A stretch of DNA of 64,000 bases from NCBI GenBank assembly GCA_017616555.1, contig JAFZXZ010000022.1, forward strand, positions 64,016 through 128,015, given 5' to 3'. The DNA comes from a bacterium (GTDB lineage Bacteria; Auribacterota; UBA3054). This document shows, piece after piece, positions 8,167 to 63,766 of the stretch; position 1 is the stretch's first letter; each line of letters starts with the position of its first letter. Both the position numbers and the translations under genes were made by a program. The notes beneath the pieces are model-generated. The model saw only the letters and a list, made by a program, of their open reading frames with translations. It did not search any database and had not been told where the DNA came from.

Positions 8167-8797
8167 CTTCCGTCGCCCTCCTGAAGGAGACCTGGCCGGT
8201 GTAGGTCACGTCGATTATGTATTTGAGATCCTCTTTCTGGGTAGCCGACAAAACTATAAGGACAGGCTCCACGTTGCCCCTGGCGTCGAAATTGATCGTA
8301 TAGGGATCCTCGTCGTATTCCTCGTCATACTGGTCGCGGATAAATTCGAGTTTTACGCTGGGAGGCAGTTTGCGGCTTGTCTGATACATCGGGATGCTCG
8401 TTCTCAGATTGGTAACCGCGGCGTATTCGTTTTCGTAATAGTCCGGATGCTCGGTCTCGGTATCGACGTCAAGGGCGGAGTCGAAGCGAAGATCGTCCGA
8501 ATCCTTGCCGACAAGGTCGTCGACGCTTAAAGGAAAGTCGTTGTATTTAGACGCTCCTTTTGAGGAGCGGTAGGATTGGTTCTCAAAGTCAAAGGTAAGG
8601 TTGTAGGGCGCTTTCTGCAGCGCCGCGTGCCCCTGGAGGTTCTTTATGGTGATGGTCAGCATCTGCGCCTCCTGCCTGACCTGGGCGGTGACGAACAGCT
8701 TCGCGATATTAGGCGAAGCCATCGAGGCCAGTATGCCTATGACCACGATGACAATGATCAGCTCGATAAGAGTGAAACCCGCCGTACTATTCTTCAT
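8156..8797 (-). CDS. gspH: Type II secretion pseudopilin, GspH-like
   Basis: 213 residues with prepilin leader KNSTAG and FTLIELIIVIVVIGILASM (Glu at +5). The soluble domain begins with IAKLFVTAQVRQEAQMLTITI, resembling GspH/FimT, and is Asp/Glu-rich. It overlaps gspK by 11 bases and the gspI-like gene by 11 bases, showing tight coupling. GspG would have a similar N-terminus but is normally shorter; H is the better fit. Confidence 0.78.
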   Translation of the reverse strand: MKNSTAGFTLIELIIVIVVIGILASMASPNIAKLFVTAQVRQEAQMLTITIKNLQGHAALQKAPYNLTFDFENQSYRSSKGASKYNDFPLSVDDLVGKDSDDLRFDSALDVDTETEHPDYYENEYAAVTNLRTSIPMYQTSRKLPPSVKLEFIRDQYDEEYDEDPYTINFDARGNVEPVLIVLSATQKEDLKYIIDVTYTGQVSFRRATEDED

Positions 8798-9812
8798 AAC
8801 ACTTCAGTATGGTGGGATAATCGGAGCCCGGCGCAACCAGCCATTCCACCATTCTGGAATAGTTGTTGCAGCGGCCGTAGGAACGGATACGCATCGCGCC
8901 TGTCGAGCCGGAAAGCTTTTCGGTTCTTCTCTGTTCGACAAGATTCTTCCAGGAATCCGGTTCCACTATGCGCAAAACGTCCGGGGAAGCCGTGTTGTAG
9001 TTCACCTGGGCCACTCTGGAATTGACAGTCACGAATTTCTTTATGCCGGGATGGCACTCGGGAGGCTCAGCAGGATTCACTTCGTCCATGTAATCCTCCC
9101 AGATCTCCCTCATCCACTGGTTGGTCTCGAAGCCCGGTGTTCCGTACCAGAGCGTCTCGTCCACCGAGCCGGGGCTGAGGTAATTGACCATGTCCATGAC
9201 CGTCAGGAACTCGTTTACGTCCTGCATAGGCGCATTGGGAATATTCCTGGGCGGATCCATCTTCTCATAGTCGGTTTTCTCGGCGCCGGAAAGTTCCGGA
9301 AAATCGTCGGAGTCAACGTAGTCGATGAGGCAGTCGGTCAGCCTGTCTATGGTATCGTCATCGACCAAAGCGATCCTGAAAAGTCTTTTTAAGGATTCGT
9401 AGCTCTTCTGCTCAGCCCAGGCGGAGATGTTGATGAGGCTCGCCTCGTCCATCGGCCCCAGACCTTTCTGGCCGAATTCATCCTGGTATTTGACAGTGAA
9501 ATTACCGTCGCCCAAAGGATAGCAGAGGAAGATCTCCTCGAAGCGTTTCAGAGTCTCGGCATCCTCGGGAAGATCGGCCCTGGGTGATAGTTTTCCCGAC
9601 ATGGATTCCCTGCGCATTTCCGCGATGCAGCGGTAGATCCCGGCCTTGGCCAGGTAATAGGCTTTGACGTCGTCAACGTAGTTCCTGGCCAGGCGCATCT
9701 CCGTCTGGATAGAATATACGTAGGCCGTGGTCAGGGTGATGAGGAAGAAGAGAATGAAACAGACCATCACCAGGATAACGCCCTTCGGTCTTTTGACGCT
9801 CTTATTTGTCAC
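8787..9812 (-). CDS. gspK: Type II secretion minor pseudopilin GspK
   Basis: 341 residues from a GTG at 9812 that overlaps the gspF stop as GTGA; a longer frame from 9887 would overlap gspF by 79 bases and begins with a low-complexity His/Asp stretch, so it was not chosen. The N-terminus (KGVILVMVCFILFFLITLTT) is hydrophobic as in GspK, which caps the pseudopilus tip and lacks the usual Glu+5. Later features such as AYYLAKAGIYRCIAEMRRE and a large inserted domain with YNTASPDVLRI near the C-terminus fit the helix-hairpin-like GspK family. Confidence 0.85.
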   Translation of the reverse strand: MTNKSVKRPKGVILVMVCFILFFLITLTTAYVYSIQTEMRLARNYVDDVKAYYLAKAGIYRCIAEMRRESMSGKLSPRADLPEDAETLKRFEEIFLCYPLGDGNFTVKYQDEFGQKGLGPMDEASLINISAWAEQKSYESLKRLFRIALVDDDTIDRLTDCLIDYVDSDDFPELSGAEKTDYEKMDPPRNIPNAPMQDVNEFLTVMDMVNYLSPGSVDETLWYGTPGFETNQWMREIWEDYMDEVNPAEPPECHPGIKKFVTVNSRVAQVNYNTASPDVLRIVEPDSWKNLVEQRRTEKLSGSTGAMRIRSYGRCNNYSRMVEWLVAPGSDYPTILKCYEE

Positions 9813-11029
9813 TGCATCATCATGTTCATGTCCAGCATCGGCAGAAGCATCGCCAAAATTATGAGCGTCACTACGCCGGCCAGACATACGATAATAAGGG
9901 GTTCCAAAGTGGACGTTGCGGCCTTCAGGGCGCGCTTGGTCTGCTTTTCATAGCTCTCCGCGATACGCCCAAGCATCTGTCCCAGACGCCCGGACTCCTC
10001 GCCCACCGAGATCATGTGTATGACGACAGGCGGAAAGACGCCGGAAGCTCTCAAAGGTTTGGCGATCCTTTCGCCCTCCTTGACGTTCTTGGCCACTGAA
10101 TCGAGGGCGTCCTCTATAACGACGTTGCCGGCCGTGTCCTTAGAGATGTTCAGCGCGGAAAGGATCGGGATGCCGCCGTCCACCAGCGTTCCGAAGGTCC
10201 TTGAGAAGCGCGCGATGGAGATCGCTTTCGTCAAGGGGCCGAGGAAAGGCAGCTTGAATTTCAATCTGTCCATCATGACCTTGGCCTGCCTGGTTTGCAG
10301 CCATTTCTTGATCAAAGCCACGGCGACGAAAATAAGGGCCAAAACCAGCCACCAATAAACGACCAAAAAGTCGGAGACGTCGATCAAAGCCTGGGTGATG
10401 GTCGGCAATTCCGCGTTGAAGTCCTTGTAGATGGCTTTGAACCTAGGGATAGCGAAGATCATCAAAGCCGCCACGGCGAGGCCCATGATGCAGCTTAAGA
10501 CCACAGGATAGACCATGGCGGCTTTGACATTCGATACGGTTTCATGCTCGTCTTCCGTGAAATCGGCAAGCCTCAGGAGCGACTGCTCCAAAACGCCGCC
10601 GGTCTCGCCGGCTCTCACCATACTGACCGCTAGGTTGGAGAAACACTGGGGATGGTCGGCCAGAGCGTCGGCCAGAGTCGAACCGGCCTGGACTTTGTCC
10701 TTGATGGCTTGTAAGATCTCCTTGAAAGCCGGGTCGTCCTCCTGCTCAAGAAGAGCGGAAAGCGACCTTACCAAAGGCAGCTTGGCCTGAGTAAGCGTTG
10801 ACATCTGTCTCAGAAAGTCGACAACTTTCTCATGCTTCACTTTCCTTCGCCTTTTGGGCAGTTCCACTCTGACCGCCGCCTCCGCTACAGCGTCGCCTTC
10901 ATAGAGCTTCGTGATGAAGATATGGCGGCCCTGAAGCTGCGTTTTGGCTTCGGAGATGGAATTGCAGATCAAAGTCCCGTTGGTCGGCTGACCCTGGGCG
11001 TTCAGGCCTTCATAGGAAAAAGACGGCAT
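9809..11029 (-). CDS. gspF: Type II secretion inner-membrane platform protein GspF
   Basis: 406 residues, the usual length. Two T2SSF repeats (about 65-190 and 270-395) each end in membrane segments; three transmembrane helices are visible (about 168-190, 220-240, 375-400). The N-terminal MPSFSYEGLNAQGQPTNGTL is typical. Together with gspK, H and I it forms part of a type II secretion or type IV pilus-like assembly; the ATPase, secretin and major pseudopilin genes are not in the window. It starts 21 bases after the pfp stop. Confidence 0.93.
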   Translation of the reverse strand: MPSFSYEGLNAQGQPTNGTLICNSISEAKTQLQGRHIFITKLYEGDAVAEAAVRVELPKRRRKVKHEKVVDFLRQMSTLTQAKLPLVRSLSALLEQEDDPAFKEILQAIKDKVQAGSTLADALADHPQCFSNLAVSMVRAGETGGVLEQSLLRLADFTEDEHETVSNVKAAMVYPVVLSCIMGLAVAALMIFAIPRFKAIYKDFNAELPTITQALIDVSDFLVVYWWLVLALIFVAVALIKKWLQTRQAKVMMDRLKFKLPFLGPLTKAISIARFSRTFGTLVDGGIPILSALNISKDTAGNVVIEDALDSVAKNVKEGERIAKPLRASGVFPPVVIHMISVGEESGRLGQMLGRIAESYEKQTKRALKAATSTLEPLIIVCLAGVVTLIILAMLLPMLDMNMMMQ

Positions 11030-11050
11030 AAAACTTCTTTGCTGGTTTGA

Positions 11051-12703
11051 TTATTTTTTCTGTTCCAGCGCCAGCGTCTTGGTCGTGGCGTCGCAAACGG
11101 CCGAGGGGCCCCAGTACTGGATGGCGCCGGGATCCTGGTAGGATTCCGTAACGGCCCATTCGTTTCTCATTGCGGCCAAAGTCTTGAAGGGTTTGCCCTT
11201 CAGATCGACCAGGGCTTTCCTGATGACGGGTTTGTCCTTGCCGTGACGATGCTCCATGTTCATCATCATGGTCAGGGGCACGCCGCCCGGCACCCACTTC
11301 TCGGCGGGAGCAGCCAGGTTCTTAAGCGTGGACATGTAGCCGTTGGCGCCGGATGCGATAAGAGCGGCGGCGTTGAATCCGAGGCCGTAGCAATAGTCGG
11401 CGTCGAAGTTGGAAGGAGAGGCGCAGCGGCCTTCATAGCCGAAGAAGTGCGAAAGCGCGCTGAACTTGCCGGTGTATTTGCCGGCTTTCTTGAGATCCCT
11501 CAGAGCGTCGCCGACCAAGTCTATAAGAAGCTTGTCGGTCTCAATGCGGGAGACCTGAACGTTGCCGTGCGGGTCTCTGTCCATAAGAAGCTGGCTCTGG
11601 ATGAGAATGGGAAGACTGGAGAAGACCTGGGAGGAAGCAGGGGTCAAATTCTTGTTGACGAACTGAAGCTTGTCGTCCATAGAGAAGGAGGCGAAATCAT
11701 CCTTGCCTGCCAAAAGGTCGTTCAGCTCGGCGATCAGCGTCTTGACTTCCGGGATGAATTCGATCAGGCCTTCCGGAATGACGATGACGCCGAAGTTCTT
11801 CTTCATCTCGGCTCTTCTGACGACCGCGTCGGTCACGGTCTTGACGACCTGACTTAGCGTCATCTTCTTCTCGGCGATCTCTTCGCTGATGAAGGTGACG
11901 TTCGGCTGCGTCTGCAGGGCGACTTCCAGAGTGATGTGGCTGGCGCTGCGGCCCATCAGTTTGATGAAGTGCCAGTACTTCTTGGCGGAGTTGGCGTCGC
12001 GGCAGATGTTGCCGACCAGCTCGGAATAGACTTTGCTGGCGGTGTCGAAACCGAAGGAGGTGCCGATCTCGCTGTTCTTAAGGTCGCCGTCGATGGTCTT
12101 GGGCACGCCGATCACGGTGATGGGAGAATTGTGGGCGGCGATGTATTCCGCCAGCATGCAGGCGTTGGTGTTGGAGTCGTCGCCGCCGACGATGACGAGG
12201 GCGTCGAGCTTATGGGCCTGCATGGTGGAGAGAGCGCTCTCAAACTGCTCTTCCGTTTCCAGTTTCGTTCTGCCGCTTCCAATGATGTCGAAGCCGCCGG
12301 TGTTGCGGTAATCCTTGACGAAGGCCGGAGTGAGATTGACGAATTTGTTTTCAATAAGGCCTGAAGGTCCGCCCAGGAAGCCTATGAGATTGCTTTTCGG
12401 AGAGGAGGCCTTGATGCCGTCGAGAATGCCGGAAACGACATTGTGGCCGCCGGGGGCCTGGCCGCCGGACAAAACGACGCCGACGTTGAAGGCTTTCTTC
12501 GAGGCTTTCTTCGCCTTGGCGAAAGAAAGAGTCGGTTTGCCGTAGATGTGCGGGAAAAGCTTCTTGATCTCCGCGGCGTTGGCCACGGACTTGGTCGTCT
12601 TCACGACCGGTTTGGCTTCGATTTGCAGTCCGGCTTTCTTGAAGAGGGCCGGCAGTTTCGGCTGATACTTAGCGCGATTTAAGGTAAAACTGGATTTTGT
12701 CAT
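11051..12703 (-). CDS. pfp: Diphosphate--fructose-6-phosphate 1-phosphotransferase
   Basis: Reversible PPi-dependent phosphofructokinase of glycolysis. At 550 residues it is the long form related to plant PFP beta subunits. Seen: [13 protein letters not shown] at the phosphate-donor site, GGDDSNTNA (about 172) where the Asp pair marks PPi rather than ATP use, [10 protein letters not shown] with the catalytic Asp (about 206) and [12 protein letters not shown]. It lies between the FHA/TPR gene and gspF on one strand. The 52-base AT-rich gap upstream could hold a promoter of its own, but no strong box was found. Confidence 0.94.
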
Positions 12704-50312: not shown

Positions 50313-53135
50313 TTACTTCACCAAGTCCGTCAGCTCCCCTCGCTTCCGGCGCTTCGCCAAAAGCTTTTCGGTGTGGCGCGCCATTCTGCGCTCCTTCACC
50401 GTCACCGCGCGCAGGAATTTCTTGTCGCGTTTCCTGAGTTTAGTTTGAGCAACGTAACGCAAATAGAAGCGCAGCATGTCGCCTCTGGTGATCTGGCCGG
50501 TAGAAACGAAAGGCAGAGAGGAGAAATAAAGTGCGGTGATGTCTTTCAGCGACCAGCGGTTCAGAAGCTTCGCGCCTTTGCACAAACGCTGCAGGTCCAG
50601 TAGATGCAGTTGATATTCGCCGGTGAGGTCCCCTACCACATAGAAGTGGCCGAGATAAAAATCCTTGTGAGTGTAGCCTTCCGTGTGAAGACGTCTGGCG
50701 ATTTGCGCGATCCTTGAAATGAGTTCCTTCTTCTGCTTGAAATCAAGCCTCAAGCCGTCGCGGAGATGATCCTCGACCGTCTTGCCGGGCGGCAGGGATT
50801 CGGTGAGCAAAAAGGAGGCCTTTTCCCTGATGCCTTTGAACTTCTCGCCGAAAACTCTGAAAGGCGTGTTCTTAATGCCTAGGGCGTCGCAGATCTCCAT
50901 TGCCTTCCATTCAAGCCTGGCGTTGCTCATCCTTCTGCCGTGGCGCCAGAACTCAAGCAGCGCGTCTTTCAGCTTCATGCCGAAGTGGCGCTTCAAATAA
51001 TAAGTGCTCCAGCCGGCGTGAATCTTGACGACAGTGCGGCCTTTCTTTCTGGTGACATGCTCCCTGGACTCGATCTCATAATAGTCCTTGAAGTCGGCTG
51101 GCAAAACTTCCTTCATGCTGGCGTAATGTGCGACGTTCACCACGATGTTGCCGACTTTCTGGTACTGTCCGTAGTTCTTCTTGATGCAGATCTCGTGTAC
51201 CTTGCGCAGGCGCTTCCTTTCCTCTTCGGTCAAGGGGACTCGCTTGGCTCCGGGGAAATTAGAGCGACGGCAGTACATGACGTACATTCTCAAGCGCTCC
51301 CTCAAGGGCCACAGTTCCCAGAAGAGATAGCGGTTGAGAAAAGCCAGATCATAGGCCAAATAGCGCTTGAAGATCCAGGGGAAGCGCCTCAGCATTGAAA
51401 GCATGAAGTCATTCAGGCAATAAGCTTTCTCAACGTCAATGAGCGTCACTCCCCACTCAAGGTTATTTGGGTCGAAGAAAATGTGTTTGCCGAAGAGCTG
51501 AAGCTCGAATACGCCGTGGCGGTGGGCTCTGCGCAGAGTCCCGGCGAGACACTTGGAGAGAGTACGCACGGTGTGGAGGCGCTCTTCTTCGCTTAAGAAC
51601 GGCGCGACGTAAGTCTGCCAATGGTCAAGAGGAATATGATTGTCAAGGTTGGCGGTCATAAGGTACCCGCACCAATAACCTTTCCACTGAGCCTCGCAGT
51701 AAGCCAGGATCTTAGGTACTTTCAGTCCCCTTCTGCTCATGCGGCACATGTTGATGTACTCGCGCCTCAACTCCTTCATGCCCTTTCCATAGGCGCGCTT
51801 CAAATAAACTTTGCCGCTGGGGCAGATCGAACGGAAGCCCGCTTCCATCTGCAGAGAATCGATCCTTCTGATGTTGCCGCGCTTTTCGTGCACGCGCATG
51901 ACCATCACTTCCGGGACTTCCTGGCCGGCCTCGCGCTTCTTCTGAACTTCCTCAAAGGTCATGACGTGCGTGAAGGTCTTGTAGCCGTTCCTGATCAGGT
52001 AAGCCCTGGCGCCAGGAGAGAAATAACGGTACATGACTTCCGGCACGAAGCCCCGGCCCATCAGGTAATGGACGAAGAACTGGTTTATGGTCTGAAGGAG
52101 GAAGATGACCGCGAAGATCAGAAGCCAGATCTTGCAGAAATAAGCGATCAAGGAAGTCATCTTCTTCTGGAACTCAAGTTTCAAGGCGCCTTCGCAAAAC
52201 ACCAGGGGAAGATCGTTGGTGCCGTGAAATTCGGTCAGCCTCAAGGATGATTCCGCCTTCTTTTCCTTTCCGCCGTCGATCCTGATAACGGCCCAATAAC
52301 CATTGGATCTCGGGATGAGATAATTTTGCAGAAGATTATTGAGGCCCAGTTCCCGCCAGCGCTTGAATTGTTCCTCTACGGTGAGCGGCGGCTTTAACGT
52401 AAAACCGTTCTGTTCAAAACGCCCCTCGCTGTTGCGGAACAATCTGCGGTCAAGACCCTGGGAAGCGGCTTCATTTCGAAGCGCGGCGGAATAAAGATCT
52501 TCGTCAGCGGCTTCCTTTAACCTTTCGTAACGTCCGGTGCAGCTTTCCGGCGCAACGGCCAGGAAATATAGGTCGCGGTACCCCGCGATTATCCCCTCTT
52601 CCTTGGCTTGATCCAAAATCTCATTCTTTTCCTGCCACCATTCCCAGGCCGCTTCTTCGGAACTGACAGCCTCCACCCAGAAGAATTCGTGCCTTGGGCG
52701 CTTCAGAGCGTTAGTAGGAGCGTTGATGAAGGGGCATTCCTCAAACTCAATGTTGCTTCCGTCAACGTAGCGGCGCTTCATGGTGCTTGAGCAGGGGGAA
52801 AGCAAAACTCTCTTCACAGCCTTGAGGTAGGCTTCCCTCGCCTCTTTTCCGAAACTCTTCAGCTGGTCGCTGAACTCTTCGTCTGTCTGGTAAACGTAGG
52901 AGCGTCCCTGGGTGAAGAATTCCTTCAGTTCGTTGGGATTCTCCGGTTTGCGCCAGTTGTGAAGCGCCGGCATCAGCTCCTGATAAGCCCTGTAATTGTC
53001 CGCCATTTTGAAATAGCGAAGCTTTTTCGCGAGATGGCGCTCGGAGCGGTTCAGCTGATTGTAGTAATAGCCGAGCAGCAGCAGGATCGTGAGTCCCGGG
53101 ACGAGCCAGAAGAGATAGATGAGACGACTGCGCAT
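50313..53135 (-). CDS. Membrane protein with two lipopolysaccharide-kinase-like (WaaP/Kdo kinase) domains
   Basis: 940 residues. Two membrane helices (about 4-23 and 326-349) enclose a ~300-residue extracytoplasmic region of unknown type. Then two kinase-like domains of the WaaP/Kdo-kinase group, both cytoplasmic. First (about 430-640): GKVYLKRAYGKGMKELRREY, HRHGVFELQLFGKHIFF and LIDVEKA; the catalytic Asp is replaced by Gln (ELQLF), so it may be inactive, although the metal-binding Asp is kept. Second (about 690-900): VVKIHAGWSTYYLKRHF, GYTHKDFYLGHFYV with catalytic Asp, and LLDLQRL. It follows mnmE by 3 bases. Likely role: phosphorylation of a cell-surface glycolipid core, sensed or anchored through the periplasmic part. 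Confidence 0.78.
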   Translation of the reverse strand: MRSRLIYLFWLVPGLTILLLLGYYYNQLNRSERHLAKKLRYFKMADNYRAYQELMPALHNWRKPENPNELKEFFTQGRSYVYQTDEEFSDQLKSFGKEAREAYLKAVKRVLLSPCSSTMKRRYVDGSNIEFEECPFINAPTNALKRPRHEFFWVEAVSSEEAAWEWWQEKNEILDQAKEEGIIAGYRDLYFLAVAPESCTGRYERLKEAADEDLYSAALRNEAASQGLDRRLFRNSEGRFEQNGFTLKPPLTVEEQFKRWRELGLNNLLQNYLIPRSNGYWAVIRIDGGKEKKAESSLRLTEFHGTNDLPLVFCEGALKLEFQKKMTSLIAYFCKIWLLIFAVIFLLQTINQFFVHYLMGRGFVPEVMYRYFSPGARAYLIRNGYKTFTHVMTFEEVQKKREAGQEVPEVMVMRVHEKRGNIRRIDSLQMEAGFRSICPSGKVYLKRAYGKGMKELRREYINMCRMSRRGLKVPKILAYCEAQWKGYWCGYLMTANLDNHIPLDHWQTYVAPFLSEEERLHTVRTLSKCLAGTLRRAHRHGVFELQLFGKHIFFDPNNLEWGVTLIDVEKAYCLNDFMLSMLRRFPWIFKRYLAYDLAFLNRYLFWELWPLRERLRMYVMYCRRSNFPGAKRVPLTEEERKRLRKVHEICIKKNYGQYQKVGNIVVNVAHYASMKEVLPADFKDYYEIESREHVTRKKGRTVVKIHAGWSTYYLKRHFGMKLKDALLEFWRHGRRMSNARLEWKAMEICDALGIKNTPFRVFGEKFKGIREKASFLLTESLPPGKTVEDHLRDGLRLDFKQKKELISRIAQIARRLHTEGYTHKDFYLGHFYVVGDLTGEYQLHLLDLQRLCKGAKLLNRWSLKDITALYFSSLPFVSTGQITRGDMLRFYLRYVAQTKLRKRDKKFLRAVTVKERRMARHTEKLLAKRRKRGELTDLVK

Positions 53136-53138
53136 AAC

Positions 53139-54491
53139 CTACTTCCCTACGCAAAACTCCCCGAAGATTATGTCGAGTATCTCGTTCGGCGTCTTCTTGC
53201 CCGTCACTTCCCAAAGCGAGGAAAGGGCAGAGCCTATCTCATCAGCGCACAGTTCCAGATATTTTCCGGAGGCGAAGCCGGATTCGGCGGCGGAAAGGTT
53301 TTCCAGCGCGGCCTTCAAAAGCTCCGAATGCCTGGCTTTCAAAAGGATCACGCTCTCTTCGCCGCAAAGCGCTTTTTCAGCCGTCGTCTTAAGGAATTCC
53401 CTAACTTTATCAAGCCCTTCCCCGCTCACCGCGGAGGAAAGCAGTGTATCGGAAGATCCCTTGTTTTCCAAAAGATCGCTCTTGGTCGTCAAAACGAGGA
53501 CCGGCTTCACAGCCTGCCATTTTTTGATCTCTTTTTCTTCAGCAGCGCTTGGCTTCTTCGTGCCGTCTATAGTCCAGATTATGGCGTCGGCTTTTTCAAG
53601 CGTTTCAATAGCGCGCTCCACTCCCAAAGCCTCGACAGTCCCTTTGGCCTTTCTAAGACCTGCAGTATCGAGGAGCGTGACGTTCAAACCCGAGACTTCC
53701 AGTTCCGCGCTTATAGTGTCGCGCGTTGTTCCAGCCACTTTCGTAACGAGCGCGCGGTCTTCCTTTATCAGCGCGTTGAACAGACTGGATTTGCCGGCGT
53801 TCGGTTTTCCCGCAATGGCGACTATCAATCCGTCCCTCAATTTGGCGGAGACTTCCGCGTTTTTCAAAAGTTCTTTTATCTCTCCGATCGCTTCCGACAC
53901 AGAGCGCTTCCAAGCCGCGGCGTCATCCGCGACGTCGTCGGAAAACTCAATGGCCCCCTGGATATGCGCGAACGTACGGCTGAGCTTTTCCGAAATAGGT
54001 TCAAGCTTCGCCTTGAGGTCGCCTCTCTGCAGTCTCCAGGCGGCGCTGAGGTGTTTTTCCGAAGAAGCTCTTATGAGCTCATCGACGCCTTCGCTCTGCG
54101 TAAGGTCCATCTTCCCGTTAAGGAAAGCCCTGCGGGTGAATTCGCCCGGAGGAGCAATGATCGCGCCGGAATGCAAGGCGGACTCAAGCACCTTCTCCAA
54201 GATCACGGGATTGCCGTGACAGAAGATCTCGGCGTAGTCTTCCCCAGTATAGCTTTTGGGAGCGCGGGAAAAGAAAGCCAGACCGCTGTCTATAGGCTCG
54301 CCTAAAGAGTTTTTGATATCGCCGAATCGCAGCTTGAAATTCCCAAAGCCAGCTGTCTTTCTTCCCGAAGCGGATGAAAAGAGCTTGTCCATGACGCTTT
54401 CAGTCATAGGTCCGCTCAGGCGGAGGACGCCGATGGCGCCTCTGCCCCGGGCGGTCGCGATCGCCGCTATGGTATCAAAGGCTGCCTGCAT
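53139..54491 (-). CDS. mnmE: tRNA uridine-5-carboxymethylaminomethyl modification GTPase
   Basis: 450 residues, standard length. N-terminal folate-binding domain beginning DTIAAIATARGRGAIGVLRLSG, GTPase domain in the middle (G1 AGKPNAGKSSLFNAL at about 220, DTAGLR, TKSD) and the C-terminal Cys of FCVGK (about 447), needed for the tRNA wobble-uridine modification with MnmG. Part of the rpmH-rnpA/yidD-yidC-mnmE cluster, 9 bases after yidC. Confidence 0.96.
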   Translation of the reverse strand: MQAAFDTIAAIATARGRGAIGVLRLSGPMTESVMDKLFSSASGRKTAGFGNFKLRFGDIKNSLGEPIDSGLAFFSRAPKSYTGEDYAEIFCHGNPVILEKVLESALHSGAIIAPPGEFTRRAFLNGKMDLTQSEGVDELIRASSEKHLSAAWRLQRGDLKAKLEPISEKLSRTFAHIQGAIEFSDDVADDAAAWKRSVSEAIGEIKELLKNAEVSAKLRDGLIVAIAGKPNAGKSSLFNALIKEDRALVTKVAGTTRDTISAELEVSGLNVTLLDTAGLRKAKGTVEALGVERAIETLEKADAIIWTIDGTKKPSAAEEKEIKKWQAVKPVLVLTTKSDLLENKGSSDTLLSSAVSGEGLDKVREFLKTTAEKALCGEESVILLKARHSELLKAALENLSAAESGFASGKYLELCADEIGSALSSLWEVTGKKTPNEILDIIFGEFCVGK

Positions 54492-54500
54492 TAAGGGAAA

Positions 54501-56111
54501 TTAGTCTTTTTTGTACTGGAGATACGTGGTCTGGGCCATGGTCAGAAGCTGGTTCACGAACCAGTAAAGCACAAGGCCGCTAGGCATGTTGTAGAAGAGC
54601 ACCGTGAAGATAACGGGCATGAAGTACATCATCTTCTGCTGGCTCGCGTCGCCCATCTTCGGGGTCAGAAGCTGCTGCGCCACCATGCCGATACCCATGG
54701 CGATAGCCAGAGGATGGATGGGCAGCCCGAAGATCGCGCCGACTTTGTCGGGCAGAGAAAGGTCCGCGATCCACAAAAAGGGCGTCTTGTGCAGTTCGAT
54801 GGCGTTAGACAAAGCCTGGTACAGAGCGACGAAAATAGGCAGCTGGATGAGCATCGGCAAACATCCGCCCATCGGATTGTAGCCGTACTTGCGGTACAGA
54901 AGCATCATCTCTTCCTGCTGCTTCTTGGGATCGTCTTTGTATTTGTCCTGGATGGCCTTGATCTCGGGCTGCAGCTTCTGCATCTTCTTCATTGCCATCG
55001 TGCTCTTCGTGGTCAAAGGCCACAAAAGGATCTTTATGATGACGGTCAGGATAATGATCGAGATGCCGTAGCTGCCGACGTAGCGGTAAGTGAGTTTAAG
55101 ACCGTACTGCATCAGCCAGGTCGCTATGACGGAATACCAGCCGAGGTCGATAATTTTTACGTAATTGGAACCGCAGACCATCTCTTTGTCGAGGGCGGTC
55201 AATCTTTCATACTGCTTCGGTCCGGTGTACAAGGTCCCCTGCCACTGGAAAGTTTCCCCGGGCTTTAGTTCAGGAACTTGGTAAGTCAATATTGCGGAAA
55301 GCCAGCCGGCTTTCTTGTCGCTGCGGAAGCCCGTCTCAAGCTTGGAGGCCTGATGCTTGGAACTGAGGGCGTGCACGAAATAGCGGTTCCCTATGGAAGC
55401 CCAAACGATGTTTCCCTCCAGGCTCTTGCTGTCTTTGCCAGGGTTGAAGCGCTTGATCTTCTCTTTCCCGTCCTCGTTGAGATAGCTGACGGTAAGGCTC
55501 CTGACGGGCGGGCGCTCCTTGACTTCGTTGAGCTTGTCGATAGTCCCCAGCCAGAGTTTCAGTTCCCTGGCAGGGATGACGCTTTCAGTAGTGTTGCGCA
55601 GCGTCAGGGAGACTTCGCTAAGATAATTGCTGACTGAGAGCGTGTAATTTTTTGTGACTTCCACTCCGCTGTCCCAGGAACCGGAAAAAGCGACGGAATT
55701 TTCAAAAGCGGCGTCGGTCGGCGCAAAGGAAAGCGCTCCTCCCGAAAGCTCGCCGTAACTGTAGATCCTCAAAGGCAGTTCATACTCAGCGGACTCTTTG
55801 CTTAAGGTGTCATAAGTTTCCTTAATGACTTTGTCACTGGTTGGGAAAAGCTCGACTCCGCTTATGTCGCCAAGCTGTCCGTCAAAGCTGATCTTCGTCA
55901 AACTGTTGGAAACGACGGAAACAGCGCCGCCTGAATAGACGCCTTCGGCCGGCAGAGCGGAAAATGACCCCGTGCTGGACGCAACGGTTGCCTGCGTCGT
56001 CTGAGTTTTCACCGTCTCAACTTTCGCCGCTTCCTTTTTCTTCATCTGTGTGAAGAAGAGCAAAAAGACCAGCGCCAGCAAGGCCATGCCTATCAGTTTA
56101 TCTTTATCCAT
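54501..56111 (-). CDS. yidC: Membrane protein insertase YidC
   Basis: 536 residues. N-terminal helix (about 5-22), large periplasmic domain (about 55-330) as in Gram-negative YidC, and the conserved C-terminal insertase domain with five helices (about 345-530; SYGISIIILTVIIKILLWPL, GGCLPMLIQLPIFVALYQAL, MYFMPVIFTVLFYNMPSGL). Inserts and folds inner-membrane proteins alone or with Sec. It starts 22 bases after the rnpA/yidD stop. Confidence 0.96.
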   Translation of the reverse strand: MDKDKLIGMALLALVFLLFFTQMKKKEAAKVETVKTQTTQATVASSTGSFSALPAEGVYSGGAVSVVSNSLTKISFDGQLGDISGVELFPTSDKVIKETYDTLSKESAEYELPLRIYSYGELSGGALSFAPTDAAFENSVAFSGSWDSGVEVTKNYTLSVSNYLSEVSLTLRNTTESVIPARELKLWLGTIDKLNEVKERPPVRSLTVSYLNEDGKEKIKRFNPGKDSKSLEGNIVWASIGNRYFVHALSSKHQASKLETGFRSDKKAGWLSAILTYQVPELKPGETFQWQGTLYTGPKQYERLTALDKEMVCGSNYVKIIDLGWYSVIATWLMQYGLKLTYRYVGSYGISIIILTVIIKILLWPLTTKSTMAMKKMQKLQPEIKAIQDKYKDDPKKQQEEMMLLYRKYGYNPMGGCLPMLIQLPIFVALYQALSNAIELHKTPFLWIADLSLPDKVGAIFGLPIHPLAIAMGIGMVAQQLLTPKMGDASQQKMMYFMPVIFTVLFYNMPSGLVLYWFVNQLLTMAQTTYLQYKKD

Positions 56112-57042: not shown

Positions 57043-58581
57043 TTAGCTCCTCTTGCGAAAGAAAGCTAAGCCAGCCAGCGCCAGAAGGCCTAAGAAGGCC
57101 GGTTCCGGAGCGGCGTATTCAACTTTGATGTAATTGATCAAAGCATAGCGGCCGTCGAAGCCAGACCAGCCCTGGACCTGAACGCCCGCGGAATCCGGGG
57201 CGCCGGGCATAGTGGTGTCAAAATATCCGCACCATCTTAAGCCCTGCCTCTTGGTAACGTCTTTGGCGTTGTTCAGGACAGCGCTTTCAAGATAGGCGCC
57301 GCCTTCCCCGTCATAAGCGACCGTCACCATGAAGTTGATCCAGTCGTTGTAGGGGCCGTTCTCCATGCCGTCGTAGCGGGGAGTCTGATCATTGCTGCCC
57401 CAGGTGGCGAACCAGCGGTTGGCGGAGTGGAAGCCGTAGGAGGCGACGGGCGAGTCTTCTTTAAAGAAGATGTTCCAGCAGCCGTTGTCGGGGCAATAGA
57501 AGCGGGTCGTGAGACGCAGTTTTCCGCCCTCGACAGGCACGCAGGAATCCGGCAGCATCACTTTGACGCCGTCTCTGGGATATCCCGAGGGAGTATTCAG
57601 CCACACTTTGGCGTATTGGCCGTAGGCAGGGTAATTTTCTAAGTCCTCTTCGATAAGATCAGAATACGCGGCATCGTTGCCGATCCTCTGATATTCGGCG
57701 TTCTGCGCGGTCAGGGACTCGCCCAAGGTATAGCTCTGGAAGTCATCCTCGAAGACCGTCACCCAAGGGGTATTTTCCTTGACATAGGTGACGGTGAGGT
57801 CATCCAGGAAATAACCGTTTCTAGTGGTGTTGTAGCCGTTGCCGACAGCGGTGAATTCCACATAGGCCGGACGTTCGGTGCCGAATTCATAGAGCTGGCA
57901 GACCTTGTCGCCGGTAAACTCGAAGCCGGCGTTGTCGGTAATATTGTAGTTAAGGAGCGTGCCGGTGTGGCAGTCCACGACCAGCGTGAAGTCGCACCAA
58001 GTGTTCCAGAGAACAGAGTCATCCGGATTGTACTTAATCTTGTCGGCGCTGGCAGAGGGCCAGCGGGGATCACCGTAGTTCGCGGCACCATTGTTGACGC
58101 CTTCCCTGCGGTTGTCAGTGTAGCAGTAGGTCTGGTAGTCGGATGAACGGAAGCAGAAACGCATCATGGGCTTGTCGGCGGCCGTGGCCAGTCTCAATTC
58201 ACCATAGCCTGTGCCGCCGCTCGGAACGTTGACTTTGCCGATGATTATGATGACGCCGTCCACGCCGTTTTCATAATCGAAGGAGCCCCAGTTCAGGGGA
58301 ACTCTGACGCCGCGGTCCTTGCCGGGGCTCGAAATGCCAGCAGGACTTTCGAACTTGCAGACGTGCAGCACCTGCGAACCGTCCTTGTCAATGATCTCGA
58401 CTTCGCCGGCAGCCGGGGCTTCAGTGGTCGTGCCAACAGTGGACCGCATGAGTTCGGTGTTGCCCTGGCCGAGCCAGTCGCCGGTGTTGTAGCTTTCAAA
58501 GTCGTCCTGGAAAAGGACCTGCGTCGAAGCGAAAGCAGCGCCCGTCAAAATAAGCGCCAAAAAGAAAAGTTGTTTCTTCAT
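57043..58581 (-). CDS. PEP-CTERM surface protein, paralogue 1
   Basis: 512 residues. Signal peptide (about 1-18, AAFAST), then two related beta-sandwich halves that each start with an F-x-D-D-F-x-SY...G motif (QDDFESYNTGDW at about 25, EDDFQSYTLGESL at about 280). Between them GNGYNTTRNGYFLDDLTVTY closes the first half. The C-terminus YIKVEYAAPEPAFLGLLA...FFRKRS is a PEP-CTERM-type sorting tail: PEP, hydrophobic helix, basic end. Exported proteins of this type are handled by exosortase in Gram-negatives; none is in the window. Ligand unknown, concanavalin-like folds often bind sugars. Confidence 0.85.
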   Translation of the reverse strand: MKKQLFFLALILTGAAFASTQVLFQDDFESYNTGDWLGQGNTELMRSTVGTTTEAPAAGEVEIIDKDGSQVLHVCKFESPAGISSPGKDRGVRVPLNWGSFDYENGVDGVIIIIGKVNVPSGGTGYGELRLATAADKPMMRFCFRSSDYQTYCYTDNRREGVNNGAANYGDPRWPSASADKIKYNPDDSVLWNTWCDFTLVVDCHTGTLLNYNITDNAGFEFTGDKVCQLYEFGTERPAYVEFTAVGNGYNTTRNGYFLDDLTVTYVKENTPWVTVFEDDFQSYTLGESLTAQNAEYQRIGNDAAYSDLIEEDLENYPAYGQYAKVWLNTPSGYPRDGVKVMLPDSCVPVEGGKLRLTTRFYCPDNGCWNIFFKEDSPVASYGFHSANRWFATWGSNDQTPRYDGMENGPYNDWINFMVTVAYDGEGGAYLESAVLNNAKDVTKRQGLRWCGYFDTTMPGAPDSAGVQVQGWSGFDGRYALINYIKVEYAAPEPAFLGLLALAGLAFFRKRS

Positions 58582-58667
58582 GTTGTTAGTTGTAAGGTTG
58601 GGAGGTTTAAAGATTGAATTTCAATGGTGGCAATATTTTAGCAAAACCTTCTTCAAAAATAAAAACA

Positions 58668-58698
58668 TAAAAAAACAAGCCCCCGCAGGGAGGCTTGT
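58668..58698 (-). terminator. Intrinsic terminator after the 58729 gene
   Basis: Stem ACAAGCC / GGCTTGT with a GC-rich 10-base loop; on the minus strand it is followed by seven T. Confidence 0.85.
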
Positions 58699-58728
58699 CT
58701 TTTAGTTAACATTCAAAAATTACGCAGC

Positions 58729-60321
58729 TTAACGTTTCCTTAAGAACGCCAATCCAAAAAGCGCCAGAAGGCCCAGGAAGGCCGGTTCCGGGACCTGCAC
58801 TTCGTACTTCACATTCTTCAAAAGAAGGAAGCGGGGCTCTTCCGTCTCCTGAGGCAAGGCCTCAAGCTGAATGCCGGCATAGTTGGGATAATCTATGGTC
58901 ACATCGGGATAGTACTTGTCGAAGCCCATGCCGTGATCGTAGTAGTCAACCGTCAGCATATGCGAGGCCGTGCCGTAGAGGTGCGTCTTCCCTTCTTCGT
59001 CGTTGAAAAGCTGGATGACATACTTCTTCCAACTGTTGTGGTCCTCCAGAGTCATGCAGTCGTACTTTCTGCCGTTTACGTAGAGGTAGTAGCGGTTGGA
59101 GTACCTCTCGTCGCTCTTGCTGCGGCCAAAATACACGGTCTGCCTGTCGTCTTCGTTGAAAACCGAGAAACCCATACCGCCGGATTTTTGATAGACCTGA
59201 GCGGTCATCCTTAGTTTGGCGCCTGGATAGTCGAACATGTCTCTCGGCACAGAAAGCGCTATTCCCGCCTTGGGCGTTGCTTCCGTGTCGTTGTTGATAG
59301 CTACGTAAACAGCGTTGCTCTCGAAGTTGACGCCTTCGTAATGATCGATGATAGTCGCCTCCAGATTGGGGGCGTTGTCCCCCGTTTGGATGAATTCCGG
59401 ATTGACGTTGAAAAGCGACTGCCCGGGCTGATACTCCGAGAAATCATCCTCGAAGAACGTCTCCCAATACTCCTCTTCCTCGTCCACAACGTAGGAGACT
59501 TTCAGGTTTGAGAAATAGGAGGCCTCCCTGGCTTCGTTGTTTTTCGCCCAGGAAGTGAAGCAGATATAGGTGGGTCTGTAGCCCTGGTAGGTCAGGGCGT
59601 TGCAGCGTCCTGTGTAGATGTCAAAGTAGCTCTGATCATCGGACCAGACTGTGAAATAGGCCAGGTCACAGATGGAAAGGTCCAGGCACAGCTCAAAGTT
59701 GTACCAATTGCCGTCTGTGGGTATGCCGTTAAATTTTGCCAGGTTCCAGCCAAGGTCGTTGCTGGAGACGTAGAAGCGCTCGTCGCCCTTGTTAACTGCA
59801 TCAGATACCACTTCATTAAGATTGTAGCCGTAATGGGCGAGATAAGCTCTCTCTTTACTGAGATCTCCCCCGTTCAGACCGAATCTGGCCATACAGGCGC
59901 CGTTGACGTTGGCGATCCTCAGTTCAGTATAAGCCGCCGCTTTGACGCGGCCCTCGATCTTCAGGAAGCCTTTGGAGGCATCGTATTCCGTCTCGCCCCA
60001 GGTTAGTTTCGTCCTGACGCCACGGCAGCCCTTGCTGTCCTCGCCGATAGACTTGCGGCAAACTTTCAGAAGTTTGTTTCCACTCTCCGCATCCTCCACG
60101 ATCGCGAGCTCGTCGCCGAAAGGCTCGTCGCCTGTAGAGGGCGCGCAGTTAGCGGTCATCTTGTCGATCACATAACCGCTGAAGGGATCTTCCAGACCGC
60201 AAAGCAAGTTGTCCGTCTCGAATTCATTGAAAAGTCCTTCCCACAGGACCGTCGTTTCCGCGGAAGCTAAAAACGCTGAAAAGCAGAAGACAAAAAGCAA
60301 TAACAGAAGATTCTTTTTCAT
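58729..60321 (-). CDS. PEP-CTERM surface protein, paralogue 2
   Basis: 530 residues, same plan as its neighbours: signal peptide (about 1-21, AFLASAET), two related halves (first WEGLFNEFETDNLL, second EDDFSEYQPGQSLF at about 295) and the tail KYEVQVPEPAFLGLLALFGL followed by AFLRKR. The first half is the most diverged of the group. Own terminator; a Shine-Dalgarno AAGGAACAC lies before the ATG and the gene lies downstream of the terminator of paralogue 3. Confidence 0.83.
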   Translation of the reverse strand: MKKNLLLLLFVFCFSAFLASAETTVLWEGLFNEFETDNLLCGLEDPFSGYVIDKMTANCAPSTGDEPFGDELAIVEDAESGNKLLKVCRKSIGEDSKGCRGVRTKLTWGETEYDASKGFLKIEGRVKAAAYTELRIANVNGACMARFGLNGGDLSKERAYLAHYGYNLNEVVSDAVNKGDERFYVSSNDLGWNLAKFNGIPTDGNWYNFELCLDLSICDLAYFTVWSDDQSYFDIYTGRCNALTYQGYRPTYICFTSWAKNNEAREASYFSNLKVSYVVDEEEEYWETFFEDDFSEYQPGQSLFNVNPEFIQTGDNAPNLEATIIDHYEGVNFESNAVYVAINNDTEATPKAGIALSVPRDMFDYPGAKLRMTAQVYQKSGGMGFSVFNEDDRQTVYFGRSKSDERYSNRYYLYVNGRKYDCMTLEDHNSWKKYVIQLFNDEEGKTHLYGTASHMLTVDYYDHGMGFDKYYPDVTIDYPNYAGIQLEALPQETEEPRFLLLKNVKYEVQVPEPAFLGLLALFGLAFLRKR

Positions 60322-60332
60322 AAGTGTTCCTT

Positions 60333-60366
60333 AAAAAACGGGACGCCAGTATTTGACGTCCCGTTT
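60333..60366 (-). terminator. Intrinsic terminator after the 60394 gene
   Basis: 10-bp perfect stem AAACGGGACG / CGTCCCGTTT with an 11-base loop, and a T-run on the minus strand. Confidence 0.88.
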
Positions 60367-60393
60367 ATTAATAACCAGATCAGGCTTTCAGCC

Positions 60394-61950
60394 TTATCTC
60401 ATCTTGCGAACGAAAGCAAGGCCAAGAAGCAGAGCCAGAGCGATGAAGCCCGGTTCCGGAGCCTGGTATTCGATCTTCAGATAGTTCAAAAGAGCGTAGC
60501 GGCCGGGTTCAGTCTGTTCCGCATCGCTGCCCCAGGCCTGGACCTGAATGCCGGTATAAGCTAGATCGTCATCGATCTTGACATCGGGGAAAACCTTGCT
60601 GAAATTGAAGGCTTCGTTCTGGTGGTCCAGAGTAGCCTTGTAGGAGCCGGCATACTCCACGTAAGGAGTGCCTTCCTCGTCATTGGCGATAACCATGACG
60701 GTGTTGACCCACATGTTGTACAGCCAGGTGGGAGTTGCGGCCTGGTACTGGGTGCCGTTGACGTCCATAACGGAGCAGTAAGCGGCATAGTAGCCGAAGC
60801 TGGCCTTAACGTCGGCGGAGGCATTGTACACAGCAGCGCCCCAAATGCCGTTGTCCGGACGATAAACTCTGCTGGTGATGCGGATCTTGGCGTTCGGTTT
60901 GCCGGTGAATTCAGCGGGCAGCGGGACGCCGGCGCCGGTTCTGGGATAACCGCCGTTTTCATTATGCAAGGTTATGTAAGCGCACTTGCCGAAAGGCAGG
61001 CTCTTATCTCTGAAGGTATCAACAACAGTGGCTTCCACATTCGGGGTCACATTGACTTCGCCAACAGGGATGTAGCCGTTGTCGAAGAGCGATTCGCCGG
61101 CAGCGTAAGACTGCATATCATCCTCGAAGGTCGTGACCCAGTTGCCGTCTTCCTCGACGTAAGAAACGCAAATGTTGTCCCAGTAGCCGCCGGCGCGGCC
61201 GGAGCCGTAACCGTTGCCAGTGGCGGTGAAAGAGATGAAGGTCGGAACGTAGCCGCCGTAGCGAAGCGGGTTGGCCGTACGAGTCTCTTCGTAAGTGTCG
61301 GTGTTATCGTCAGTCCAGTACTTGAACGTCACAAGACCTTTGGCAGCGCCGCAAACGATCTCGAAGTTGTACCAAGTGTTGAGAGACTGGCTCTTCCTGG
61401 GACGCAGACGAACGCCGCAGCCGTAGTCGTTGGGGTACTTCCAATCATCGCTGTCCTGGTTGACGCCGCATTTCGGCTTTTCCTGATCGTAGTGGTTAAG
61501 ATAACCGTTGCCGAAGTCGGAAGCCTTCGGGCAGTAGGTGAACATCGTGGCGGAGTTGACGTTGCCGAGACGGATCTCCTCATAACCGGTGTCGACGGTG
61601 TAAACGCGGCCGGTGATCTTGATGCAGCCAAGCAAGGGGTTGTAAGTGGTGTCGCCCCAGTTAAGCTTGATATTGCAGCCTTTGTCGCCGTTGCCAGCTT
61701 CGGTCCTCTTGACCTTCAAAACTTTGCTGTCGTCAAGAGTGGTGATGATAACGTCGCCGGCTTCCGGAGCGGTGCCGTTGCACTTATCGCCGTTGTTCAT
61801 CACTTTGACTTCGTTGCCGTAAGCGTCAACCTGGCCGATGATCTCACCTTCAGCGAAGGATTCGAAATCGCTTTCCCAAAGAACGGTCTCAAAAGAGAAA
61901 GCGAAACTGGCGGCATAAAGCACCGCCGCAATTAAGAGAAGTTTCTTCAT
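60394..61950 (-). CDS. PEP-CTERM surface protein, paralogue 3
   Basis: 518 residues from the ATG at 61950, which has AGAGGTG six bases upstream; a GTG two codons earlier is less likely. Signal peptide (about 1-20), two halves beginning WESDFESFAEGEII and EDDMQSYAAGESLF, and the tail YQAPEPGFIALALLLGLAF followed by VRKMR. Conserved details with paralogues 1 and 4: FTATGNGY...GYWDNICVSYV and YALLNYLKIEY near the tail. A consensus promoter is at 61988-62016. Confidence 0.85.
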   Translation of the reverse strand: MKKLLLIAAVLYAASFAFSFETVLWESDFESFAEGEIIGQVDAYGNEVKVMNNGDKCNGTAPEAGDVIITTLDDSKVLKVKRTEAGNGDKGCNIKLNWGDTTYNPLLGCIKITGRVYTVDTGYEEIRLGNVNSATMFTYCPKASDFGNGYLNHYDQEKPKCGVNQDSDDWKYPNDYGCGVRLRPRKSQSLNTWYNFEIVCGAAKGLVTFKYWTDDNTDTYEETRTANPLRYGGYVPTFISFTATGNGYGSGRAGGYWDNICVSYVEEDGNWVTTFEDDMQSYAAGESLFDNGYIPVGEVNVTPNVEATVVDTFRDKSLPFGKCAYITLHNENGGYPRTGAGVPLPAEFTGKPNAKIRITSRVYRPDNGIWGAAVYNASADVKASFGYYAAYCSVMDVNGTQYQAATPTWLYNMWVNTVMVIANDEEGTPYVEYAGSYKATLDHQNEAFNFSKVFPDVKIDDDLAYTGIQVQAWGSDAEQTEPGRYALLNYLKIEYQAPEPGFIALALLLGLAFVRKMR

Positions 61951-61987
61951 GAACACACCTCTATTGGTTAAAAATATTATTCGCAGT

Positions 61988-62016
61988 ATTATATGAAATC
62001 AGGCCGCCAATTTCAA
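61988..62016 (-). promoter_or_regulatory. Sigma-70-type promoter of the 61950 gene
   Basis: Minus strand: TTGAAA (62011-62016), 17-base spacer, TATAAT (61988-61993), 37 bases before the ATG. Confidence 0.8.
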
Positions 62017-62130
62017 CTTCTTAAAACAATTCCGGCGTTTGCCAGCGCATCTTATTGTTTCGAAATTATTTAATTTCCGATATTTTCAGCGGCAAAAGCC
62101 GTCAAAAATGCCTTTCGAGCCCTTTCCCTG

Positions 62131-62160
62131 TTTCATTTTGAAATTACTTTATGCTACAAT
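62131..62160 (+). promoter_or_regulatory. Possible promoter of the 62219 gene
   Basis: TGcTACAAT (hexamer 62155-62160) with an 18-base spacer to TTTCAT (62131-62136). It lies 58 bases before the ATG. The intergenic region between the two divergent PEP-CTERM genes also has short inverted repeats, notably a 16-bp palindrome GAAATTATTTAATTTC at 62062-62077. Confidence 0.5.
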
Positions 62161-62218
62161 AATGGATAGTGTGTTCGAAAATCTTCCTTTGCTAACCATT
62201 TAACCAACCGATAAACCC

Positions 62219-63766
62219 ATGAAGAAATTATTCCTGCTTTCCCTTTTTGTCGCTCCGGCTATGCTTTTCGCCGCTGTGACGCAGACCGTAATCTTTGAGA
62301 ACAATTTCGACAGTTACGTTCCCGGCAACTTCTACGGCCAGGACGCCGACTACCAGATCATGACATCTGATATTTCCTGCGTCGGCCAAGAGCCGGTCGA
62401 CGGCGAAGTGACCATCGTCTATGACGAAGAACGCGCTTCCAATGTTCTGTACGTCAAAAAGATCAAAGCGCCTGAGGGCTTGTCATCTAGTGACGCAAAA
62501 AAAGACCGCGGTCTCAGGGTGCCTCTCGATTGGGGCAGCATCGATTACGCTAACGGCGAAAACGCCTTTATTTTAGTTACCGGCAAGGTAAAAGTCCCCG
62601 AAGGCAACGGCTACGCCGAGCTTCGTCTCGCCAACACCGCTGACCAATGGATGATGCGTTTTTCTCCGTACGGCGGCGACAGCGGTTACAAGACTTACTT
62701 CTATAACTACAATGACAGCCGTGCCATAAATGCCGGCGCTGCCAACGCCAATGAACCACGCTTCCAGACAGTAGAGGGCAGGACCTCATACACTTCAGGA
62801 GCCGTCAAGTATGACACGTGGTGCGACTTTACGATCGTAATAGACTGCGAGCTCGGCGTTGTGAGATCTTTCGAGATCACCGACAACGACACCTTCAACT
62901 TCGCCAGCGATTACGCAACCATTCTCAAACACTTCCTGGCTGCGCCCGCCTTCTTCGAATTCACTGCCGTCGGCAACGGCTACGATACGAACAGAATGGG
63001 AGCTTACTTCGACGATCTGAAAGTGACCTTCGTCCAGGAGGAGTCCATTCCCTGGGTAACGGTCTTCGAGGATGATTTCTCTACTTACAATGTCGGCGAC
63101 TCACTCACCGAAGTGAATCCAATCTACAAAAGGATCGGCAACGAAGTGACCTACACCGACCTGATCGAAAACGACGGTGTCAGCAACTACGCCAAGATTT
63201 GGATCAACACTCCCAGCGGATATCCCTTCGACGGTATCTTGTACGATATCCCCGCGGAATGCGTTGCTGCCGACGGTACCAAACTAAGGTTCACAGCCAT
63301 CACCAAAGTGCCGGACAACGGCGTTTGGGCTGGATTCTATTGCAACGGCACGCCGGAATGCACCCTCGGCTACCACTCTGCCAACGCCTGGTTCACGACC
63401 TGGAGCGAAGGCGCTTACACCGATCCCCGCTATAGCGGCCGCGAAAGAAACATTCACGGCTCTTATTATACCGGCTGCAGGCTGACCGTTGCCACCGAAG
63501 GAGAGGAGACCTACCTGAAATCCACCCGCATAACCACCGATCAGTCCGGATACACCGATGACCAGTGGGGATGCCCCTGGAGCGAATACTACGTCACCTC
63601 GCTTGCGGAAGTCCCCACCCAGGCCGGTATCACTGTCCAGGGCTGGGATGGTTTCAACGGCCGCTACACCTGCCTTAGATACTTCAAGGTCGAATACGCT
63701 GCTCCGGAACCGGGCATGATCGCTTTGCTCGCGCTCATGGGCCTCGCTTTCCTCCGCAGGAAGTAA
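62219..63766 (+). CDS. PEP-CTERM surface protein, paralogue 4
   Basis: 515 residues. Signal peptide (about 1-19, MLFAAVTQ), halves beginning ENNFDSYVPGNFYGQ and EDDFSTYNVGDSLTE, PEP-CTERM tail AAPEPGMIALLALMGLAF followed by LRRK. Closest to paralogue 1 (shared RGLRVPLDWGSIDYANGEN-like and WCDFTIVIDCELG stretches). Unlike the other three it is on the plus strand and divergent from paralogue 3. The mRNA has a ~50-base leader without clear Shine-Dalgarno. Confidence 0.85.
   Translation: MKKLFLLSLFVAPAMLFAAVTQTVIFENNFDSYVPGNFYGQDADYQIMTSDISCVGQEPVDGEVTIVYDEERASNVLYVKKIKAPEGLSSSDAKKDRGLRVPLDWGSIDYANGENAFILVTGKVKVPEGNGYAELRLANTADQWMMRFSPYGGDSGYKTYFYNYNDSRAINAGAANANEPRFQTVEGRTSYTSGAVKYDTWCDFTIVIDCELGVVRSFEITDNDTFNFASDYATILKHFLAAPAFFEFTAVGNGYDTNRMGAYFDDLKVTFVQEESIPWVTVFEDDFSTYNVGDSLTEVNPIYKRIGNEVTYTDLIENDGVSNYAKIWINTPSGYPFDGILYDIPAECVAADGTKLRFTAITKVPDNGVWAGFYCNGTPECTLGYHSANAWFTTWSEGAYTDPRYSGRERNIHGSYYTGCRLTVATEGEETYLKSTRITTDQSGYTDDQWGCPWSEYYVTSLAEVPTQAGITVQGWDGFNGRYTCLRYFKVEYAAPEPGMIALLALMGLAFLRRK

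Follow-up and report, generated by a model that had tools for sequence, protein, structure and literature searches.

A membrane-anchored tandem of WaaP-family kinase domains with an apparently inactivated first copy and an exporter-like N-terminal part

The 64,000-nucleotide stretch of bacterial DNA analysed here (hereinafter, the window) encodes a protein in which two kinase domains of the WaaP family, the first an apparent pseudokinase, follow a two-helix membrane part that appears to be homologous to the periplasmic loops of MMPL/RND exporters (Table 1). This architecture is real, conserved and new, and is assembled from parts of known families. We consider it reasonably probable that the protein is an inner-membrane kinase of the LPS inner core, with the pseudokinase acting as an intramolecular regulator or scaffold and the porter of a fossil exporter serving as the anchor. 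According to PMC6147952, WaaP does not possess the means of regulation that are usual in protein kinases; a protein that combines a WaaP-type kinase with a built-in, conserved pseudokinase and a transmembrane remnant of an exporter would thus represent a regulated LPS kinase. The author of the original prediction did not know this architecture, and our search of literature titles and opening lines of abstracts, with most subscription papers outside its scope, likewise turned up no description of it.

Table 1. Features of the kinase gene and its upstream neighbours (positions in the window)
Feature	Position	Strand	Basis
Whole gene, 940 aa: apparent RND-type porter remnant, pseudokinase and WaaP-type kinase	50313..53135	-	ORF, ATG start
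Transmembrane helix 1, about residues 5-24, equivalent to exporter TM1 by position	53064..53123	-	hydropathy peak near residue 14
Apparent exporter loop 1 homologue (TM1-TM2 interval), about residues 67-139	52719..52937	-	A3 profile 63-135, hhalign 92.6%
Apparent exporter loop 2 and TM8 homologue, about residues 144-356	52068..52706	-	A3 profile 141-356, hhalign 96.3%
Transmembrane helix 2, about residues 329-348, aligned with exporter TM8	52092..52151	-	hydropathy peak near residue 338
Kinase-like domain 1, apparent pseudokinase, residues 405-650	51186..51923	-	PF06293, hhalign to domain 2, 6dfl
K446, counterpart of WaaP K51 (ATP site), domain 1	51798..51800	-	kept in 11/13
E544-L545-Q546 in the place of HRD, domain 1	51498..51506	-	His and Asp lost in 13/13
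D567, counterpart of the DFG-Asp D188, domain 1	51435..51437	-	kept in 11/13
Kinase domain 2, apparent WaaP/RfaP type, residues 691-940	50316..51065	-	PF06293, RfaP model, 6dfl
H823-K824-D825, catalytic HRD motif, domain 2	50661..50669	-	His and Asp in 13/13
D847, DFG-Asp, domain 2	50595..50597	-	13/13
mnmE, directly upstream of the kinase gene	53139..54491	-	adjacency in 6/8 loci examined
yidC, upstream of mnmE	54501..56111	-	same order in L068, L070, L071, L074

Conservation and genomic neighbourhood

A profile derived from the whole-protein alignment detects a single orthologous gene per genome in all 15 genomes examined from the order to which the window belongs, which excludes a chance occurrence; in two of the 15, the orthologue is split in two pieces. 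The alignment used below comprises rows from 13 of the 15 genomes, with the omission of G003, where the end of the contig cuts the gene, and of G004, where the gene is split by an in-frame TAA; the row of G008 begins within the loop owing to a frameshift. The TAA of the G004 orthologue (L005 / L033), near codon 262, and the frameshift in the N-terminal region of the G008 orthologue (L073) each represent either an assembly error or decay. Outside the order, none of the 29 other genomes examined from the phylum matches the N-terminal profile, and many of these do carry WaaP-type kinases. Identity to the window protein is 73-94% within the window genus and 26-30% in the seven other rows. Close relatives of the window are ruminant-gut assemblies titled RGIG. 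The protein occurs throughout this order of gut and environmental bacteria, and its apparent combination of a dead kinase, a live LPS kinase and the periplasmic remainder of a lipid exporter suggests that the outer membrane's coat of sugars and phosphates is under an unusual kind of regulation.

All three regions of the protein evolve under purifying selection, with dN/dS values in seven same-genus pairs of 0.056-0.161 for the N-terminal region, 0.053-0.155 for domain 1 and 0.058-0.130 for domain 2, although in several pairs dS is near or above 1, so that those values are rough. Given that dN/dS of domain 1 (0.05-0.16) is similar to that of domain 2, even with some values being rough, this domain appears to be maintained, and we rule out that it is a decaying duplicate.

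The start codon of the kinase gene is located 3 nt downstream of a gene that, from its sequence, we take to be mnmE, which itself follows the presumed yidC. The putative mnmE is found directly in front of the kinase gene in the window and in L068, L069, L070, L071 and L074, and not in the f2 loci L072 and L073. Elsewhere in the window, the products of four adjacent, apparently paralogous genes (57046-63763) are each about 510-530 aa long, begin with a signal-like stretch and share a similar FES-type motif near the N-terminus, and a run of genes at 7747-12703 resembles those of type II secretion and pseudopilins.

The two kinase domains

The Pfam family PF06293 (Kdo/WaaP) matches the whole protein with an E-value of 2.1e-31 in two stretches, of which the best spans residues 691-894, and in a scan of the window's own genome with this family both copies exceed the cut-off of 21.3 bits (77.1 bits for domain 2 and 41.5 bits for domain 1). 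The original prediction, namely, that a WaaP/Kdo-kinase-like motif occurs twice, with the HKD of the second copy (H823-K824-D825) intact and, in the first copy, the Asp replaced by Gln (ELQLF, E544-L545-Q546) and the later Asp (LIDVEK, D567) retained, is thus borne out, and so is the notion that the first domain is probably a pseudokinase on a membrane anchor. The kinase fold of the first domain, which had been set as the test of that prediction, also receives profile support. Taken by themselves, residues 341-645 reach 41.4 bits with PF06293 (E = 1.4e-10), an hhalign profile comparison aligns domain 1 with domain 2 at 98.3%, and the WaaP chain 6dfl is matched with E = 2.2e-6, all of which identifies domain 1 as a relative of the kinases. 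AlphaFold models obtained from shallow alignments had a pLDDT of 43 for domain 1 alone (8 rows) and 35 for the full protein (7 rows).

By its sequence, domain 1 is a pseudokinase of the WaaP family that has lost the catalytic base and, in most lineages, kept the nucleotide-binding and Mg residues. In the 13 aligned orthologues, neither the His nor the Asp of the HRD motif is ever present, the position of the Asp being occupied by Q in 6, E in 1, G in 4 and A in 2. By contrast, the residues of the ATP/Mg site are largely retained (K446 in 11/13, E459 in 12/13, H551 in 11/13 and D567 in 11/13), the exceptions being the f2 rows L016 and L017. Nucleotide binding by domain 1 is thus probable in f1, f3 and f4 and improbable in the f2 lineage (G011 and G008), where both the Lys of the nucleotide site and the DFG Asp are missing, so control via nucleotide binding cannot be general. 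A real, if tentative, possibility is that domain 1, rather than being a regulator, is a copy for substrate binding or scaffolding that keeps the lipid A-core, or else a partner enzyme, in place for domain 2, with the kept nucleotide residues having a structural role. This would be in line with the retention of the architecture in G011 and G008 despite the loss of the two residues, and with the branches of domain 1, which in a phylogenetic tree of 40 domains (9 of the 13 rows for each of the two domains) forms one clade (98/97) of unresolved placement, being much longer than those of domain 2. What speaks against it is that the ATP/Mg residues persist in 11-12 of the 13 rows, across f1, f3 and f4, even though the f3 and f4 domains are just 21-29% identical to that of the window.

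Domain 2 appears to be a sugar kinase of the WaaP/RfaP type in which all the tested catalytic and substrate residues are present. K715, E742, H823, D825, Y827, H830, D847 and R850, each found in 13/13 aligned orthologues, correspond, in this order, to K51, E78, H161, D163, Y165, H168, D188 and R191 of WaaP, and the same counterparts are seen in 10/10 single-domain relatives and in E. coli RfaP. According to Table 1 of PMC6147952, mutation of each of K51, H161, D163, Y165, H168, D188 and R191 in WaaP abolishes growth, and E78A increases the sensitivity to EDTA 128-fold. The domain matches 6dfl with an E-value of 6.9e-16 and scores 126.6 bits with the RfaP equivalog model NF011703, which is under the curated cut-off of 170. 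In the tree, domain 2 comprises one clade (100/99) that is joined with E. coli RfaP and the single-domain relatives (88/86, not starred). Catalysis by domain 2 is likely. Among the basic residues through which P. aeruginosa WaaP contacts acyl-ACP, the counterpart of K140 is basic in 12/13 rows and that of R226 in 11/13, whereas those of R222 and R229 are basic in 0/13; as these residues vary in the single-domain relatives as well, we rejected the acyl-ACP surface as a deciding criterion.

It is unlikely, in our assessment, that the target of the kinase is something other than the LPS core, for instance, a protein or a different envelope lipid. Such a target would fit the neighbourhood, in which no core LPS gene adjoins the kinase gene, its neighbours being mnmE and yidC, and the presence in the order of a soluble tandem Kdo-family gene that is located beside a glycosyltransferase family 9 (GT9) gene in several loci and could do the core job. 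However, the substrate residues Y165 and R191 of WaaP have their counterparts in domain 2 (Y827 and R850) in 13/13 rows, and the domain groups with RfaP in the tree. The LPS pathway is represented in the order by the KdtA-type family in 13/15 genomes and by GT9 in 14/15.

That domain 1 is a low-activity or otherwise-acting enzyme with a kinase fold rather than a dead one, for example, one that catalyses AMPylation as SelO does, appears quite improbable: the Lys, the Glu, the second-Mg His and the DFG Asp are kept, and kinase folds that lack the catalytic Asp can be active, as noted in excerpts of PMC3281104 and PMC10870513, but the Asp position is inconstant (Q, E, G, A) and its neighbours are variable, unlike what is expected of a conserved new active site.

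The membrane part

Ahead of the kinase domains, two hydrophobic helices, centred near residues 14 and 338, are separated by about 300 residues. Two hydropathy peaks are present in 12/12 full-length orthologues; L011, L014 and L015 show an additional, marginal peak (1.53-1.59) within the kinase part. No family from Pfam or NCBIfam matches the N-terminal region above the cut-off, and the profile of this region has no match among PDB sequences. As the N-terminal region appeared to resemble MMPL-type lipid exporters, it was compared with a protein of E. coli CFT073 annotated as an MMPL transporter and nine relatives. Within this set, the profile matches periplasmic loop 2 and the beginning of the helix that follows it with a score of 50.0, which was reached by none of 200 shuffles (best, 27.6), and no match was found to the first periplasmic loop.

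In a search of 384 genomes, the profile retrieved the 15 members of the order, G136 and G274 from another phylum, and three weak single stretches, in G194, G301 and G358, which we rejected as support because each is a single short, helix-centred stretch. The G136 and G274 ORFs encode 12-helix MMPL proteins of 850 and 837 aa (PF03176, E = 3e-43 and 5e-43, respectively). Matching exporters are found in four of the six genomes of this phylum (G136, G385, G387 and G274), each in two collinear pieces, with profile positions 63-135 in loop 1 and positions 141-356 in loop 2 with TM8; the latter segment of the A3 profile yields E-values of 2.6e-13 to 7.0e-8 with these four exporters. The two pieces are 936-957 nt apart in the four exporters, compared to about ten residues in the kinase protein. 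A reciprocal HMM made from G136 and G274 finds the f3 and f2 orthologues with the same two pieces at E-values of about 1e-8 to 3e-7, the best match in a reversed database being 0.063, and the window protein itself is absent from the matches of this search. Reversed profiles likewise fall short of the exporter match scores. When the profile is limited to the window genus, the exporter match is near noise (29.0, with the best of 100 shuffles at 27.8). The link of this genus to the exporters runs through orthology: its N-terminal region and those of the other orthologues align at 99.2% over 361 columns, and residues 4-368 of the window protein (P0001) are found by an HMM from which the window genus was left out.

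At the level of the order profile, therefore, the two-helix part appears, from its sequence alone, to be homologous to both periplasmic loops of the MMPL/RND exporters, with TM2-TM7 absent. Some 312-319 residues (TM2-TM7) would be missing between the two loop pieces, and a deletion, while not proven, is the simplest event. In RND proteins, the loops between TM1 and TM2 and between TM7 and TM8 are periplasmic; as six is an even number of helices, the topology would be preserved if that of the exporter holds, with the exporter remnant in the periplasm and the kinases in the cytoplasm. A periplasmic site of the N-terminal region is supported by the homology to the exporter loops. With regard to the predicted periplasmic region of about 300 residues between two helices, then, the spacing stands, and the idea of a plain periplasmic region gives way to a likely porter remnant of the MMPL/RND type. 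An RND exporter would have been converted into a module of another protein, with six helices lost and the topology kept. It is most improbable that the exporter match is due to chance or to a generic likeness among porters and that the two-helix part represents a periplasmic sensor domain of unrelated origin, for although the genus-only profile is near noise and the region lacks a Pfam or NCBIfam family, the two pieces occur in identical order and place in four exporters, the shuffles, reversed profiles and reversed database all stay below the observed scores, and the N-terminal region of the window genus aligns with the other orthologues over those 361 columns.

Five MMPL-type ORFs from the window's own phylum (L098-L102) do not match the N-terminal profile. 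The G274 exporter gene is located (L133:1-10576) near genes that we take to be related to fatty-acid synthesis, along with one for acyl carrier protein, and these surroundings hint at a lipid substrate.

Proposed function and relation to known systems

In the mechanism that we favor, the kinases would be held at the cytoplasmic face of the membrane, where the lipid A-core assembles, and domain 2 would phosphorylate the heptose (or Kdo) of the inner core. Domain 1 would pack against domain 2 and either stabilise or gate it, and regulation of domain 2 is plausible; perhaps, and this is speculation, domain 1 is a stand-in for acyl-ACP as the stabiliser. The exporter remnant, which in the absence of the translocation helices would not be capable of transport, would anchor the enzyme; its capacity to bind periplasmic lipid may have persisted, and it might relay its lipid-bound state to the kinase pair. 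A more specific evolutionary scenario, which we regard as doubtful but conceivable, is that an ancestral lipid exporter became a receptor through the loss of the translocation helices, retention of the lipid-handling porter in the periplasm and gain of the pseudokinase-kinase pair, with the nucleotide-binding pseudokinase relaying the lipid state of the periplasm to LPS core phosphorylation. If true, this would be a one-protein transmembrane circuit in which periplasmic lipid sets the phosphorylation of the LPS core in the cytoplasm.

Among the known systems, the closest to the kinase part is the core heptose(I) kinase WaaP/RfaP (PF06293; PDB 6dfl; PMC6147952), with which domain 2 shares the profile and the catalytic and substrate residues, and domain 1 the family profile. 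WaaP, however, consists of one kinase domain that is stabilised by acyl-ACP (excerpts of PMC6147952), whereas here two membrane helices, the apparent exporter remnant and the pseudokinase precede the kinase, and the ACP contact residues are partly kept. The MMPL/RND lipid-type exporters (PF03176; G136, G385, G387 and G274; WP_000185758.1 of E. coli CFT073) share with the N-terminal region a portion of loop 1 as well as loop 2 and TM8. These exporters possess 12 helices with a translocation core; the kinase protein, in contrast, has 2 helices in 12/12 full-length rows, lacks TM9-TM12 in addition to TM2-TM7, and hence the translocation pathway, and is fused to kinases. The membrane pseudokinases EssB/YukC and MviN similarly combine a kinase-fold pseudoenzyme with a membrane protein that acts in the envelope but, unlike the Kdo/WaaP domains described here, are relatives of Ser/Thr kinases (excerpts of PMC12599244); in a word search of that paper, none of the terms Kdo, WaaP, lipopolysaccharide and tandem was found.

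A single chain with two WaaP-family domains is also seen in soluble tandem Kdo-Kdo proteins from the same phylum (L066, with proteins of 547 aa and 519 aa; L062, L064, L065 and L067). In these, no membrane part was noticed and, unlike in the protein described here, both copies retain the catalytic Asp in the six proteins compared.

The order contains a second, soluble tandem Kdo-family protein (L135:4908-6470, L136:3550-5286, L139:3401-5167 and L141:2348-3763; compare L137, L138 and L140), the gene for which adjoins a GT9-type gene in several of the loci L135-L141; no such gene turned up in the incomplete genome from which the window comes. In the first copy of this protein, the catalytic Asp is retained in 7/7 sequences; in the second copy, it is lost (HGN, HGS or HGA) in 4/7, from G005, G001, G011 and G008, and kept in G009, G010 and G014. 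Given that a second tandem Kdo gene has lost the Asp of one copy in some lineages, the pairing of a kinase with a pseudokinase seems to be recurrent in this branch. In the soluble WaaP-WaaP tandem of family f8 (L066:4461-6101 and L067:2-1468), the first copy contains YPD at the place of HRD, with the Asp kept and the His lost, and this tandem possibly represents an intermediate state.
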